Of a stretch of 33,204 nucleotides of DNA, positions 1 through 15,636 are shown piece after piece. Within the stretch, counting starts at the first letter, position 1; every line of letters starts with the position of its first letter. A program made the translations under genes and the position numbers. The DNA comes from Myxococcales bacterium (GTDB lineage Bacteria > Myxococcota_A > Bradymonadia > Bradymonadales > Bradymonadaceae). Under the pieces are notes generated by a model. It saw only the letters and a program-made list of their open reading frames with translations, did not search any database and was not told where the DNA came from. Location of the stretch: contig JALSKP010000808.1 of the NCBI GenBank assembly GCA_026988815.1, forward strand, positions 1-33,204, in the 5' to 3' direction.

Positions 1-137
1 TAACGATGACCGCGTTCATGCTATTCCTGCCAGCAGGTGTCAATCTTTATTACTTCCTCAGCTTGCTGATCGGAGTGATTCAACAATATTTAATTAAAAA
101 AAGTTTCGCAAAAAAGAAAGAAACGAAAACCACTTGA
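1..137 (+). CDS. yidC: YidC membrane insertase, C-terminal end only (cut by window edge)
   Basis: Only the last 44 or so codons are present; the reading frame enters at base 3 and ends with TGA at 135-137. The peptide has the hydrophobic FLPAGVNLYYFLSLLIGVIQQ stretch (given here only in part of the last transmembrane helix) followed by a Lys-rich tail, which is the usual end of YidC/Oxa1 proteins in two-membrane bacteria (compare the family pattern F-P-A-G-L-x-L-Y). YidC inserts proteins into the inner membrane with or without SecYEG. The identification is strengthened by the next genes, jag and mnmE, which follow yidC in very many bacteria near the replication origin. The stop codon lies 9 bases before the jag start, so the genes are very probably co-transcribed. 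Confidence 0.85.
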   Translation, partial: TMTAFMLFLPAGVNLYYFLSLLIGVIQQYLIKKSFAKKKETKTT

Positions 138-146
138 GATAAAATC

Positions 147-1100
147 ATGGCAACAAAAAAAGAAGTTAAAAAGAAGACAACAACCGCAAAGAAAAAACCA
201 GCAGTAAAAAAAGCGACAGCTAAGAAAAAGCCAGTCGTTAAAAAGAAGGCGGCTGTTAAGAAAACAACAACAAAAAAAGCAACGGCAAAAAAGGCTGCAC
301 CTAAAAAGGCTGCAACAAAGAAAGCGGCGGTAAAAAAGACGGTTAAGAAAGCGACAACAAAAAAAGCGGCCGTTAAAAAAACTGCTGTTAAGAAAACCGC
401 TAAAAAACCGGCTGTTAAAAAAACGGTTGTTAAGAAAAAAACCGCAGTGAAGAAACCAGCGGTTAAAAAAACAACTGCAAAAAAAGCGACCAAGTCTGCT
501 GATAAGCCAGCAAAAAAGGGTGTAAAAAAGACAACTAAACCTGTCGTAAAAAAGAAAACGACGAAGAAAGCTGAAAGTGCTGAAAAAGACGCGCCAAAGC
601 CAAAAAGAGAAGACAAGCCTGTCGAGAAAAAGACCGAGACACCGACCCCTAAACTTCTTAAAGCAGGCGGTAAGTGGCTCGATCAAGTTTTCAAAAAAAT
701 GGAGCTCAAGGTAAAAACCAAAGGGGCTATCAAAGGCAATAATCTTTCATACGAGATTGAAGGCGAAGGTGCAGAGCAGCTCCTTTCTAAAGGGACTAGA
801 ACCGTTGATTCTATTACGACCATTATGAAATCTGCTCTTTTAGAGCGACACAGCCCTATTAGAATTGAAATCGACAAAGCGGGTCGTCGCGAAAAGCAAA
901 CCGGTCTTTTCTCAAAAATCGCCGAGCAGTTGGCCGCCTTCGCCGCTGGTGCAAACGACTCCATCACTGTTGCCGGATTTGATTCAACAGAGCGTAAAGC
1001 CATCCATCAAGTTCTCGAAGGCGACAAGCGCGTTAAGACCGACAGCGACGGCATGGGCGCTTTCCGTAAGCTTCGTCTTGAGCCTTCGCGAAGAAAGTGA
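147..1100 (+). CDS. jag: Jag (SpoIIIJ-associated) KH/R3H RNA-binding protein with long histone H1-like Lys/Ala N-terminal tail
   Basis: The protein has 317 residues. Residues 1 to about 165 are almost only Lys, Ala, Thr, Val and Pro in repeated K-K-x-A/T-x-K-K units, like the tail of histone H1 or AlgP-type proteins. Residues about 170-245 fit the Jag KH domain, with a GxxG-like loop near 215-219. Residues about 250-317 are a clear R3H domain: IAEQLA, then ERKAIH with the Arg283-x3-His287 signature, then the SDGMGAFRKLRLEP end. The usual Jag_N domain is missing and the basic tail stands in its place. Jag (KhpB) binds RNA in the cytoplasm and works in cell elongation and envelope control in the species studied. 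The basic tail may add nucleic-acid binding; that is inference. The gene lies between yidC and mnmE and its stop overlaps the mnmE GTG start. Confidence 0.85.
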   Translation: MATKKEVKKKTTTAKKKPAVKKATAKKKPVVKKKAAVKKTTTKKATAKKAAPKKAATKKAAVKKTVKKATTKKAAVKKTAVKKTAKKPAVKKTVVKKKTAVKKPAVKKTTAKKATKSADKPAKKGVKKTTKPVVKKKTTKKAESAEKDAPKPKREDKPVEKKTETPTPKLLKAGGKWLDQVFKKMELKVKTKGAIKGNNLSYEIEGEGAEQLLSKGTRTVDSITTIMKSALLERHSPIRIEIDKAGRREKQTGLFSKIAEQLAAFAAGANDSITVAGFDSTERKAIHQVLEGDKRVKTDSDGMGAFRKLRLEPSRRK

Positions 1101-2455
1101 GTTCCTTTGATACCATCGCCGCAATCGCGACGCCCGAAGGACGCGGCGGTGTGGGTATCATTCGTCTTAGCGGTCCAAAATCGTCCGCTATTTTGGACGC
1201 ATTTATCCCTCAATCTGAGGGTTTTTCTTTTTCTTCCCACACCCTAAAACTTAAAAAATTATATGATGCCAAGGGCGACTTTTTAGATGAGGCCCTTGTT
1301 GTTTTGATGAAAGGTCCAAATAGCTACACGGGTGAGGATGTTGTCGAGTTTCAATGCCACGGCGGAACACTTGTACTTCGCGCGGTTTTGGACGCCTGCT
1401 TATCGCATGGCGCACGCACGGCAAACCCGGGAGAGTTCACCCAACGCGCGTTCATGAACGGGAAACTTGATCTCACCCAAGCAGAAGCTATTTCTGATTT
1501 GATCAACGCAAGCAGTAAACGTGCTTACCAAATGGCACTTTCCCATCTCGACGGCGCCCTTGGAAAAACGATTCTTCATTGTCGTGAGAAAATCGCTGAG
1601 GCGATGATGCTCGTCGAAGCGGCGATCGACTTTAGTCACGAAGAGCACGTCTATCAGATCGAAAGAGACGAGGTCGCCAAACGCATCCACGCTGTCCTGG
1701 AAATACTCATTCCCTTAAGGGATGGGTTTGATCATGGAAGACGACGCAGAGAAGGGATTTCGGTCGCGATTCTTGGACCGCCCAACGCCGGAAAATCAAC
1801 GCTCTTTAACGCGCTTCTCGAAGAAGAACGCGCCATCGTGACGGAAATCGCGGGAACGACACGGGACTATTTGCGAGAAAGCTTACTTATCGACGGCGTT
1901 CTCATCAACATCATCGATACCGCTGGTTTGCGGGAAACCGAAGATAGAGTTGAGGCCATCGGCGTGAAAAGAAGCGTCGAAATATCTACTTCCGCCGATG
2001 TTATTTTATGGTTGGTTGACGCGTCCAACCCGACCTTTTCGTCGGTTGGAATGCAGATGCAGAGTCTACTGAAAAACGTAGCTTCGGCGGCCATCATCGT
2101 GAATAAAATTGATCTGGCTCCCGATTTTTCAATGCAATCCTCTTTTGAAATCTTAAAGACCAATCTTCTCACCCAATCTGGCTTGGAGGAAGTCAAAGCA
2201 CTCCTGAAAAAATTCTCGACCGAGCTCACCGAGGGTGAAGGTCTTCTCATCAGTCGGACTCGCCATCTAGAAGCGGTTATCGCCTCTATCCAATCTTGTG
2301 AGATGGCCAAAACCTCGGTCGAGCAAAAGGAAGATAACGAGATCGTGGCCCTTGATTTGCGAGAGGCGCTTGATGCCCTTGGGAAGATCGTCGGTCATGT
2401 AAGCGCCGATGATATCCTAAATCGGATCTTTTCTGATTTTTGTGTAGGAAAATAA
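1097..2455 (+). CDS. mnmE: tRNA modification GTPase MnmE (TrmE)
   Basis: MnmE works with MnmG to place the carboxymethylaminomethyl group on wobble uridine 34 of some tRNAs. The 452-residue length is usual. The N-terminal formyl-tetrahydrofolate-binding domain starts with DTIAAIATPEGRGGVGIIRLSG. The G domain sits in the helical domain: G1 GPPNAGKS at 227-234, G2 TEIAGTTRD around 249-257, G3 DTAG at 274-277 and G4 NKID at 336-339. The protein ends in FCVGK, which has the essential Cys of the C-x-G-K motif. The start is GTG at 1097, overlapping the jag stop (GTGA), which indicates translational coupling. No mnmG, rsmG or parAB follows; a gene on the other strand begins 7 bases after the stop. 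Confidence 0.95.
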   Translation: MSSFDTIAAIATPEGRGGVGIIRLSGPKSSAILDAFIPQSEGFSFSSHTLKLKKLYDAKGDFLDEALVVLMKGPNSYTGEDVVEFQCHGGTLVLRAVLDACLSHGARTANPGEFTQRAFMNGKLDLTQAEAISDLINASSKRAYQMALSHLDGALGKTILHCREKIAEAMMLVEAAIDFSHEEHVYQIERDEVAKRIHAVLEILIPLRDGFDHGRRRREGISVAILGPPNAGKSTLFNALLEEERAIVTEIAGTTRDYLRESLLIDGVLINIIDTAGLRETEDRVEAIGVKRSVEISTSADVILWLVDASNPTFSSVGMQMQSLLKNVASAAIIVNKIDLAPDFSMQSSFEILKTNLLTQSGLEEVKALLKKFSTELTEGEGLLISRTRHLEAVIASIQSCEMAKTSVEQKEDNEIVALDLREALDALGKIVGHVSADDILNRIFSDFCVGK

Positions 2456-6122: not shown

Positions 6123-7370
6123 TTATCGGCTGGGAAGCGCTGGCGTGGCAGCCCCTTTTAAATCTTTGATCGCGCCCATAAAAAATAAGGTGCCCTCCTC
6201 CTTGTCTTCAAGCATAAAAAAGAAGGGTTTATCAATCTTAAGGTTAAACTTTCGCTTAAACATTTCCGGTCTTAGATCCACAGAAAAAGAAAAATCATTT
6301 TGGTGAAGGATGGCGTCGACCTTGAGCGCCTCATAGGACAGGGCCGAAAAATCAGCCTTATCTGAGAACGCCTTTTTAATCCCCATCGCATGAAAAAGGG
6401 GAACAACATTGCCTTGGGTATGAACTTTAAAACCCTCCATACTCAGATTTACTTCCTTGCTTTTTAGTTGGATTTTTACGCTTCGAACGAAGGCGGCGTT
6501 TAAGGTCTTTTCTTCGAAATTCTGAAAATCCTTAGGCATAAGGATGAACAATACTTTTCCGTCTGATTCCAGTTCTATCGCGATGACACCATCGACTTTT
6601 GCATAGGCGATACGCGGTGTTTGGCGTTTCATGAATCCTTTATCGTTGGCCAATCCACGATAATTGGTGTAAGCGCCGTGATAGTAAAGGCTGCTTGAGA
6701 AGACCAATTGCGCGTGTTGAGCCAAAGTTTTGGGCGCAAGAAGGGGCTCCGTGTCTCCTATTCCACCAAAGCTATTAATCGATGCATGTGCTTTTTCGGG
6801 ATCTGAAAAAGGCGTGGCGTGAATGGATTCATGAAGAAAGTCTCCCAAAATTTTTCGTGCGCGCAATTTGAGTTGTAGCTCTTGGGGGACAAAAATATTA
6901 ATATTATCCAGAAGCGCTTTTCTTTTCGTCCAGCTGAATTTACGGCCGCCGAAGTAGGCGTAAAATGCATCCTCATCGCTGAAATCAAAGTGCATCACGT
7001 TTTCGATTTCCTTTTTGCTTTCTCCCTCGGCTCCTGCGTGCATGAGCGCCATATTCTTTGCCAAAGTGATGGGAGAGAAAATAAAATTACTTTTTTCAGA
7101 CTGCGAAAGATGCTTAAAGAAGGTCATTGAGAAGTCGAGATTTCGAGCCGTGAAGGGCGCGGATGCATCTCTACTTAAAACCGTTTTTTTAGGAAGAGGG
7201 TGATCTTTTGGAATCGTGGTGATCTCGGGCCCTGTTATTAAGGTGTTTTTCTTCTCTATGATAGGTGCCTGTGTTTTAGGTTGAGCGACAATAGCCGTTT
7301 TTTCTCGCGTTTCGTGATGGCTATCACAGGCGAGATAAAAGAGGATGCAAAAAAATATGGTAAACTTCAT
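6123..7370 (-). CDS. Serpin-fold lipoprotein with shortened, hinge-less reactive loop
   Basis: The protein has 415 residues with a lipoprotein signal: a hydrophobic start, then LFYLAC with Cys about 15. The serpin fold is clear from NFIFSPITLAKNMALMHAGA (family pattern N-x-x-x-SP-x-S-I), the DFSAL segment and the end KPFFFMLEDKEEGTLFFMG (family D-x-P-F-x-F-x-I-x-x-x-x-T-G-x-x-L-F-x-G). Inhibitory serpins need a hinge such as E-E-G-T-x-A-A-A before the cleavage site. Here residues about 355-380 between the His-containing strand and KPF are roughly ten residues shorter than usual and have no such Ala-rich hinge. The protein may therefore be a non-inhibitory serpin. It would sit on the inner or outer membrane, facing the periplasm or outside. 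Its stop is 28 bases from the convergent gene. Confidence 0.85.
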   Translation of the reverse strand: MKFTIFFCILFYLACDSHHETREKTAIVAQPKTQAPIIEKKNTLITGPEITTIPKDHPLPKKTVLSRDASAPFTARNLDFSMTFFKHLSQSEKSNFIFSPITLAKNMALMHAGAEGESKKEIENVMHFDFSDEDAFYAYFGGRKFSWTKRKALLDNINIFVPQELQLKLRARKILGDFLHESIHATPFSDPEKAHASINSFGGIGDTEPLLAPKTLAQHAQLVFSSSLYYHGAYTNYRGLANDKGFMKRQTPRIAYAKVDGVIAIELESDGKVLFILMPKDFQNFEEKTLNAAFVRSVKIQLKSKEVNLSMEGFKVHTQGNVVPLFHAMGIKKAFSDKADFSALSYEALKVDAILHQNDFSFSVDLRPEMFKRKFNLKIDKPFFFMLEDKEEGTLFFMGAIKDLKGAATPALPSR

Positions 7371-13905: not shown

Positions 13906-13990
13906 GCGTAAATTTTTCGCGTCTTTTAATCTTACTCGACCTTCCCTAACTCTGTGGTTTATTATCAAGATAACTTGAACGGTGATGTGG

Positions 13991-14845
13991 ATGAAAGAAG
14001 ATGACAATGCGACCCTCTCTTTGGAGGACTTCCAATCCATTAAAAATGGTGAGGATCTCAGAAAATTATTACACGAGAGAAAGCTTTCTACGAAGAAAGT
14101 TGAAGGTAAACTTCAATACGAAATGATGCTCAATGAGCTTCAGGTCGAACTGGTGAAATTGCAGCAATGGGTTAAGAAAAATAACCATCGTGTTGCCATT
14201 ATTTTTGAAGGTCGAGACGCGGCTGGAAAAGGAGGCAGTATCCGCCGCTTTATGGAGCATCTTAATCCACGTTCAATGCGATTGGTCGCCTTGAATAAGC
14301 CGACCGAAGTTGAACAAGGTCAGTGGTATTTCCGTCGATATATTAAAAGGCTTCCCAACCCGGGAGAGATCGTTTTCTTTGATCGCAGCTGGTATAATCG
14401 GGCTGTTGTCGAGCCGGTCATGGGGTTTTGTTCAGACGAGCAATATGATCGCTTTATGGTCCAAGTCCCTGAATTCGAACATATGTTACGTGAAGATGGC
14501 GTGATTATTATTAAGATGTGGTTTTCGATTACCAAAGCCGAACAACTAAAGCGCTTTAACTCGCGTTTGAAAAGTCCCGTAAAGCGTTGGAAATTTAGCC
14601 CCATCGATAAGCAGGGACAAGAATTATGGGATCGCTATTCCTTCTTTAAATCTCAAATGTTTAGTAAAACCCACAGTTCTTATAGTCCGTGGACGATCAT
14701 CAAAACAAACGACAAACATACCGCACGTTTGGAAAGTATTCGTCACGTCCTGGCCCAATTTAAGTACGACAATAAGAGCGAATCCCTTAATTTATTACCC
14801 GATCCGAATACGGTTTTGCGGTACCAGCGCACGAGTTTAAAATGA
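13991..14845 (+). CDS. ppk2: PPK2-family polyphosphate kinase, copy 1
   Basis: PPK2 proteins move phosphate between polyphosphate and nucleotides, usually polyP-driven phosphorylation of nucleoside mono- or diphosphates. Walker A is GRDAAGKGG (74-82) within IFEGRDAAGKGGSIRRF, Walker B Asp131 in FFDRSWYNRAVVEP, and the lid has SPVKRWKFSPID (195-206). The length of 284 residues fits single-domain class I PPK2. Three starts are possible in frame (GTG 13982, ATG 13985, ATG 13991); the N terminus of the family is variable and no strong ribosome site decides. An inverted repeat TCAAG-N4-CTTGA at 13965-13978 lies just upstream. The stop overlaps the start of a second PPK2 gene (ATGA). Confidence 0.9.
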   Translation: MKEDDNATLSLEDFQSIKNGEDLRKLLHERKLSTKKVEGKLQYEMMLNELQVELVKLQQWVKKNNHRVAIIFEGRDAAGKGGSIRRFMEHLNPRSMRLVALNKPTEVEQGQWYFRRYIKRLPNPGEIVFFDRSWYNRAVVEPVMGFCSDEQYDRFMVQVPEFEHMLREDGVIIIKMWFSITKAEQLKRFNSRLKSPVKRWKFSPIDKQGQELWDRYSFFKSQMFSKTHSSYSPWTIIKTNDKHTARLESIRHVLAQFKYDNKSESLNLLPDPNTVLRYQRTSLK

Positions 14846-15636
14846 ATCATATCGATAAATTTACCGAAGAGGATCTTCGCGTTCTCAACTCAAAGAAGGG
14901 GATTTATGAACTCTTGATCCAAGAAGGCGAGTTGGATTTGCGTCGTGCTATACGCCGAACCAATACCGAAACCACGATTCAAGAGCTACAGGTCGAATTG
15001 ATCAAGATGCAGCACTGGGTGATCCAGAACAAAGAAAAAGTTGTTGTCATTTTTGAGGGGCGAGATGCGGCCGGAAAAGGCGGCGCGATTCGCCGAATTA
15101 TCGAGCGACTCAATCCTCGTCACCTACGTGTTCAGGCCCTACCCAAGCCCTCCGAGGACGAGGAAAGTCAATGGTATTTTCAACGCTATGTTGATGTTTT
15201 ACCTGTCGGCGGAGAAATCGTTTTCTTCGATCGTAGTTGGTATAACCGCGCTGTGGTAGAGCCCGTGAACGGCTTCTGTCGGCAAAAAGAGTACGAACGA
15301 TTTATGAACCAAGTCAATCGTTTTGAAGATATGTTGACCGAATCCGGTATTCGCCTCATTAAAATTTACATGTCGATTTCCAAGAAGGAGCAAGCGCGAC
15401 GTTTTGCAGCGATCAGTGCAGATCCTTTAAAAATATGGAAGATGAGTAAAGTTGACGAAGAAGCCCAACGCCTCTGGGACGACTATACAGAGTATAAAAC
15501 CCGCATGTTTGAGAATGCCAAAGCCGGCGGAAAGCCTTTTAAAGTGATTAAAGCCAATAAAAAAACGATCGCCCGAGTTAAAGCAATTAAATATATCCTT
15601 TCCAAGATTCCTTATGATAAAGACCTCCAGGTTTAA
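14842..15636 (+). CDS. PPK2-family polyphosphate kinase, copy 2 (divergent lid)
   Basis: The protein has 264 residues and is a paralogue of the preceding gene, sharing LQVELIKMQHWV, the Walker A segment IFEGRDAAGKGG (near 70-81), Walker B Asp130 in FFDRSWYNRAVVEP and GFC. It differs in the lid: ISADPLKIWKMSKVD (191-205) where copy 1 and the family have RLK-x-P-x-KRWKFSP. The lid Arg next to Trp is replaced by Ile. That may change nucleotide choice or rate, or the two proteins may form a mixed oligomer; both are inference. The start ATG 14842 overlaps the stop of copy 1, so the two are translated together. An alpha/beta hydrolase follows after 15 bases. Confidence 0.88.
   Translation: MNHIDKFTEEDLRVLNSKKGIYELLIQEGELDLRRAIRRTNTETTIQELQVELIKMQHWVIQNKEKVVVIFEGRDAAGKGGAIRRIIERLNPRHLRVQALPKPSEDEESQWYFQRYVDVLPVGGEIVFFDRSWYNRAVVEPVNGFCRQKEYERFMNQVNRFEDMLTESGIRLIKIYMSISKKEQARRFAAISADPLKIWKMSKVDEEAQRLWDDYTEYKTRMFENAKAGGKPFKVIKANKKTIARVKAIKYILSKIPYDKDLQV

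Follow-up and report, generated by a model that had tools for sequence, protein, structure and literature searches.

Why does a Jag RNA-binding protein carry a histone H1-like tail of about 165 lysine-rich residues, and does this tail take the place of the Jag_N domain, as the initial annotation proposed? The jag gene of a bacterium that probably belongs to Bradymonadia/Bradymonadales raises both questions. We have addressed them by comparing the locus, the tail and the folded core with those of relatives.

The jag Locus

The window analyzed here, a stretch of 33,204 nucleotides, opens with the 3′ end of yidC (1..137, plus strand), whose translation has the C-terminus ...YYFLSLLIGVIQQYLIKKSFAKKKETKTT and stops at 135-137. 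Just 3′ of this stop lies a single open frame (147..1100, plus strand), jag/khpB, with 317 codons and a stop. The GTG start of the following mnmE (1097..2455, plus strand; NF003661, 408 bits) overlaps the jag stop in the tetranucleotide GTGA. Location between yidC and mnmE is the locus criterion for Jag/KhpB/EloR, and in the congener G001 the order of genes is rpmH-rnpA-yidD-yidC-jag-mnmE. By synteny and by its R3H domain, the window protein is a Jag orthologue.

The locus had been placed next to the replication origin block, a description that the comparison of genomes did not support. The dnaA gene is on a separate contig from the jag locus in both congeners, G000 (the window's own assembly) and G001. 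Among complete genomes, the distance is ~378 kb in G005 and, measured to the yidC-mnmE locus, ~570 kb in G008, yet it is ~4 kb in G011. The lineage is probably predatory; a serpin with an apparent lipoprotein signal (PF00079, E 3e-31) is encoded at 6123-7370 on the minus strand of the window.

The Lysine-Rich Tail

Residues 1 to about 165 (147..641, plus strand) are built from KKA, KKT and KKV units in frame with the KH-R3H core. The composition is 41% Lys, 18% Ala, 16% Thr and 11% Val, the net charge is about +60, and the tail is presumably disordered. The best 150-residue stretch of Jag has a net charge of +59 and 43% Lys; of the 31 genes checked in the window, the runner-up has +13. The Pfam HC2 profile (PF07382, histone H1-like) matches the tail alone with E 3e-7 and 25.8-31.1 bits, under the gathering score of 40, whereas the tail of G001 scores 53.8 bits, above that cut-off. 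The likeness to HC2/H1-like bacterial proteins lies in the K/A/T/V repeat composition. Apart from its score, the window tail differs from them in that it extends a folded, predicted RNA-binding protein. No further HC2-like proteins were found in the window's own genome at E 1.

In G001, the only other genome of the genus examined, Jag has a tail of 163 residues with a net charge of +59, in frame and at the same locus, and a core that is 80% identical. Alignment of 149 tail codons between the two species revealed 104 with the same residue, 53 of which use a different codon. Ala and Thr are spread over all four of their codons, therefore a recent duplication of DNA does not account for the repeat. 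The in-frame tail of the congener, together with the codon turnover, rules out an assembly artefact, which had been raised as a concern, as well as a recent repeat expansion. Slippage on poly-A was also considered, with 14 AAAAAAAG sites in the window against 8.9 expected, and is not compelling. The histone H1-like tail of the initial annotation is thus borne out. It is real and kept across two species, the residue pattern having been held while synonymous sites changed heavily, and from this pattern we read the tail as probably under selection.

KH, R3H and Jag_N Domains

The core (residues 165-317; 639..1097, plus strand) was delimited by the NCBIfam Jag_EloR profile NF041568 and by an AlphaFold2 model searched with Foldseek. 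The initial annotation had described intact KH and R3H domains, which proved right for R3H. In a profile search of residues 165-317, the R3H domain (PF01424; residues 257-311; 915..1079, plus strand) scored above its cut-off with E 1e-8 to 5.4e-8, and its RxxxH motif, R283-H287, is intact. NF041568 was matched with E 2.8e-17 and 63 bits, well under the 145-bit equivalog cut-off. Pfam KH_KhpA-B gave no match to the window protein even at E 1, and no profile match to Jag_N was obtained. At the GXXG position of the KH domain, alignment to 3gku and class-wide alignment place the degenerate loop SKGT (residues 214-217; 786..797, plus strand), where 3gku has GKRG and G001 has SRGS.

The model of the core, based on an alignment of 14 sequences (pLDDT 88.7, pTM 0.60), superposes on the KhpB crystal structures 3gku, 9lrg and 9lri with TM 0.67-0.72 (0.70-0.72 for 3gku and 9lrg) and E about 1e-10. 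According to the model, the type II KH fold is retained despite the lost GXXG. The window protein thus resembles Jag/KhpB/EloR (NF041568; solved structures 3gku, 9lrg and 9lri) in its yidC-jag-mnmE locus, in its predicted KH-R3H fold (TM about 0.7) and in RxxxH. It differs in having no Jag_N and no GXXG, in falling under the NF041568 cut-off and in its polycationic N-terminus of about 165 residues. A literature search for Jag/KhpB of Thermus gave nothing usable.

The altered loop is a property of the class. We compared 48 Jag sequences, whose assignment to the window's class was taken as supplied and three of which are near-identical split genes of genus g23, with 41 that come from the phylum's other classes. 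No GXXG, even a loose one, is present in 44/48 class members, compared with 14/41 elsewhere; the difference (4/48 versus 27/41 with G..G) has a Fisher p of 9e-9 when relatedness is ignored. The four class members with a loose GXXG-like loop all have insertions, and G005, of the basic-tail group described below, is among them. KH_KhpA-B matches only one of the 48 class Jags but 28/41 of the others, while R3H is matched in 48/48 and 38/41, respectively, and RxxxH is intact in every class member. Jag_N is matched in 0/48 class members and in 8/41 of the others. Since Jag_N is absent throughout the class, from tailed and tail-less proteins alike, there was no exchange of Jag_N for a tail in the window genus, and that part of the initial annotation is ruled out. 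By the same count, close relatives do not show a plain Jag_N start without the tail; the congener has the tail.

KhpA and the Proposed Mechanism

In other bacteria, EloR/KhpB pairs with KhpA through its KH domain, and a GDDG mutant of KhpA has a null phenotype yet retains pairing (PMC6403258). KhpA is present in most relatives, and its loop is kept as IGKGGR or IGRGGR in the nine family genomes read (LIGRGGK in G005). G001 has KhpA with GKGG. A search of the window's own assembly, which is 87.6% complete, revealed no KhpA, and G029 (95% complete) has jag and no KhpA match. In the complete genome G008, yidC is directly followed by mnmE (L243:2895-6037); no jag was found anywhere by profile, and no KhpA either by profile or with the congener KhpA as query. 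This single case is possibly a joint loss of jag and khpA.

The explanation we consider best, with a confidence a little under the halfway mark, is that the main role of the degenerate KH domain is pairing with KhpA, that RNA is bound by R3H, and that the polycation contributes additional, non-specific affinity for nucleic acids. Having neither Jag_N nor the phosphate-gripping GXXG, the class Jag would use its KH fold mainly as a pairing surface for KhpA. KhpA would supply the working KH loop (GKGG/GRGG), with R3H remaining as the RNA contact. In the window genus, the free N-terminus would be a disordered polycation with strong non-specific affinity for nucleic-acid backbones. Its ligand would most likely be RNA or ribosomes near YidC, so that the tail may partly make up for the lost KH grip. 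RNA is mildly favored as the ligand, since outside the tail the protein consists of an RNA-binding module, and its locus encodes translation and membrane-insertion factors. Lys-rich low-complexity regions of prokaryotes have been associated with nucleic-acid binding (PMC6821194). Counting against this explanation are the missing KhpA in the window's own assembly, the jag without KhpA in G029 and the loose GXXG in four class members.

A precedent for protein-protein use of the fold is HP1451 of H. pylori (chain G of 2pt7), which complexes with VirB11 and inhibits it. The core model matches it by Foldseek with E 1e-4 and TM about 0.6, but the identity is only 11%. To our knowledge, HP1451 has no such Lys-rich tail.

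Tail Diversity among Relatives

Among the relatives' jag loci, a similar tail was recovered in the congener; elsewhere in the family it is absent, acidic or basic. The family sample comprised 21 genomes, 18 of which have jag, and the net charge of the N-terminal tail ranges from −45 to +60. G011 has nearly no extension (16 residues). Acidic tails were observed in G015 (−45), G014 (−27) and G012 (−18), K/D-rich tails of the KSKKDDDKD type in G013, G016 and G018, and basic tails in G004 (+54), G005 (+43), G006 (+37) and the window genus (+60 and +59). Tail-less Jags also occur in families beyond the window's own. From this range of charge and from the tail-less members, it follows that the polycation is dispensable for class Jag and that compensation for the lost KH grip would not be general.

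Such diversity raises the question of whether the tail has a function. Without Jag_N, the N-terminus could be a free spacer, neutral or weakly constrained, with repeats that grow and drift and, in the window genus, with an H1-like composition of little specific function. One family spanning absent, acidic, K/D-rich and strongly basic tails fits this reading, as do repeat units that differ from genus to genus, a KhpB linker that varies across species (PMC10117718) and the tail frame of genus g23 in family f4, which stops while the core lies in another frame. It is harder to reconcile with the near-identical charge and composition in two species, over half of whose identical tail residues have been recoded, and with a basic tail that may be common to a subclade. 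On balance, we regard a neutral tail as unlikely. A tree built on the core places G004 and G005 as the sister group of the window genus, with support of 86/73, below the starred level. The basic tail may therefore be older than the window genus, its repeat unit having since changed, and may mark a subclade.

A Lys/Ala-rich tail and a diverged KH loop are also seen in family f4 of the same class, where Jag combines a weak IF2_N-like domain in front with KKAAPKKAAAKK repeats. In L018:925-1971 (plus strand) and L025:1477-2427 (minus strand), the weak IF2_N-like domain is followed by a KKAAPKK-type tail and the KH-R3H core. The window protein differs from these in having no IF2_N-like domain, and f4 is far from the window genus on the core tree; the f4 tail probably arose independently. 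In L176, L177 and L178 (genus g23, family f4) and also in L042, the frame of an AKP-rich tail closes with a conserved DAKKEG-stop. The KH-R3H core follows in the −1 frame without an ATG, GTG or TTG start, as in a split gene, an unusual start or a frameshift; inspection by eye for programmed frameshifting in g23 revealed no standard slippery heptamer. A scan of MnmE alignments placed L033, L034 and L042 in the window's class, among the matches listed. In family f1 (L004, L005, L008 and L011-L017), a short recurrent N-terminal motif, GRKSARGxxAKKRDED-like, precedes variable tails; it is missing in the window genus. Because neighboring genera have widely different tails at this position, the window Jag is a striking local variant, conserved and unusual, of a known protein and not a new protein type.

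DNA and Polyphosphate as Candidate Ligands

Tails of similar character are known from AlgP and PhaF of Pseudomonas, whose H1-like KPAA tails bind DNA; AlgP (+55) is found at polyphosphate granules, and such Lys-rich tails can serve both DNA and polyphosphate (PMC9239181). The likeness is in length, about 150 Lys-rich residues, and in charge (+55 in AlgP versus about +60 here). Nevertheless, the AlgP and PhaF tails are C-terminal and of KPAA type, whereas the window tail is N-terminal and made of KKA/T/V, and the partner domains are unrelated.

With these proteins and HC2 as models, the tail could bind DNA and keep Jag, together with the RNA it binds, at the chromosome, which the initial annotation had considered. 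The HC2 match agrees with such a nucleoid tether, and the same genus links SAP domains, an often DNA-binding family, to trigger factor and bactofilin. Jag itself, however, lacks SAP and any other DNA-specific domain, RNA is likewise bound by polycations, and the tails of some relatives are acidic. We judge this possibility unlikely.

The SAP fusions are observations in their own right. Trigger factor extended at its C-terminus by a Lys-rich linker and SAP (PF02037) is encoded at G000:C87:9586-11109 (L257:1501-3024, minus strand; E 5e-13) and in G001 (L236:1465-3075, minus strand; E 5e-12), and G004 and G005 are similar by sequence. In a literature search, no paper combining trigger factor with SAP was found. 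A bactofilin (G000:C200, L274:1501-2058, minus strand; PF04519 E 3e-23) ends in a C-terminal linker and SAP (PF02037 E 3e-12), a cytoskeletal polymer with a putative DNA-binding end; the arrangement in G004 (L276) looks similar.

Polyphosphate had been proposed as a further partner, with reference to two PPK2 genes in the window. These genes are confirmed (13982-15636, plus strand; PF03976, E 3e-92 and 4e-85) and overlap by four bases. The tail would then anchor Jag to granules made with the nearby enzymes, in keeping with the location of AlgP and with the accumulation of polyphosphate by cultured Bradymonas during predation (PMC7460792). Yet PPK2 is 13 kb off with unrelated genes between, the shared 33-kb window is the sole tie between Jag and PPK2, and among relatives of the same group the tail is acidic or missing. 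We hold this anchoring to be highly improbable. A bridge, with the tail on the nucleoid or on polyphosphate granules and R3H and KhpA on RNA, is quite unlikely as well. If true, it would tether transcripts to the chromosome or to a storage granule, possibly in connection with the starvation-predation cycle.

Implications

KhpB is coming to be recognized as a global RNA-binding protein. Jags that are otherwise equivalent but differ in the sign of their tail charge amount to a natural swap experiment on the variable N-terminus. The loss of GXXG throughout the class, R3H being retained, is a broader and perhaps more useful observation than the tail. With R3H and the GXXG of KhpA kept, it makes the KhpB of this class a natural KH-domain mutant, which bears on the question of which parts of KhpB bind RNA.
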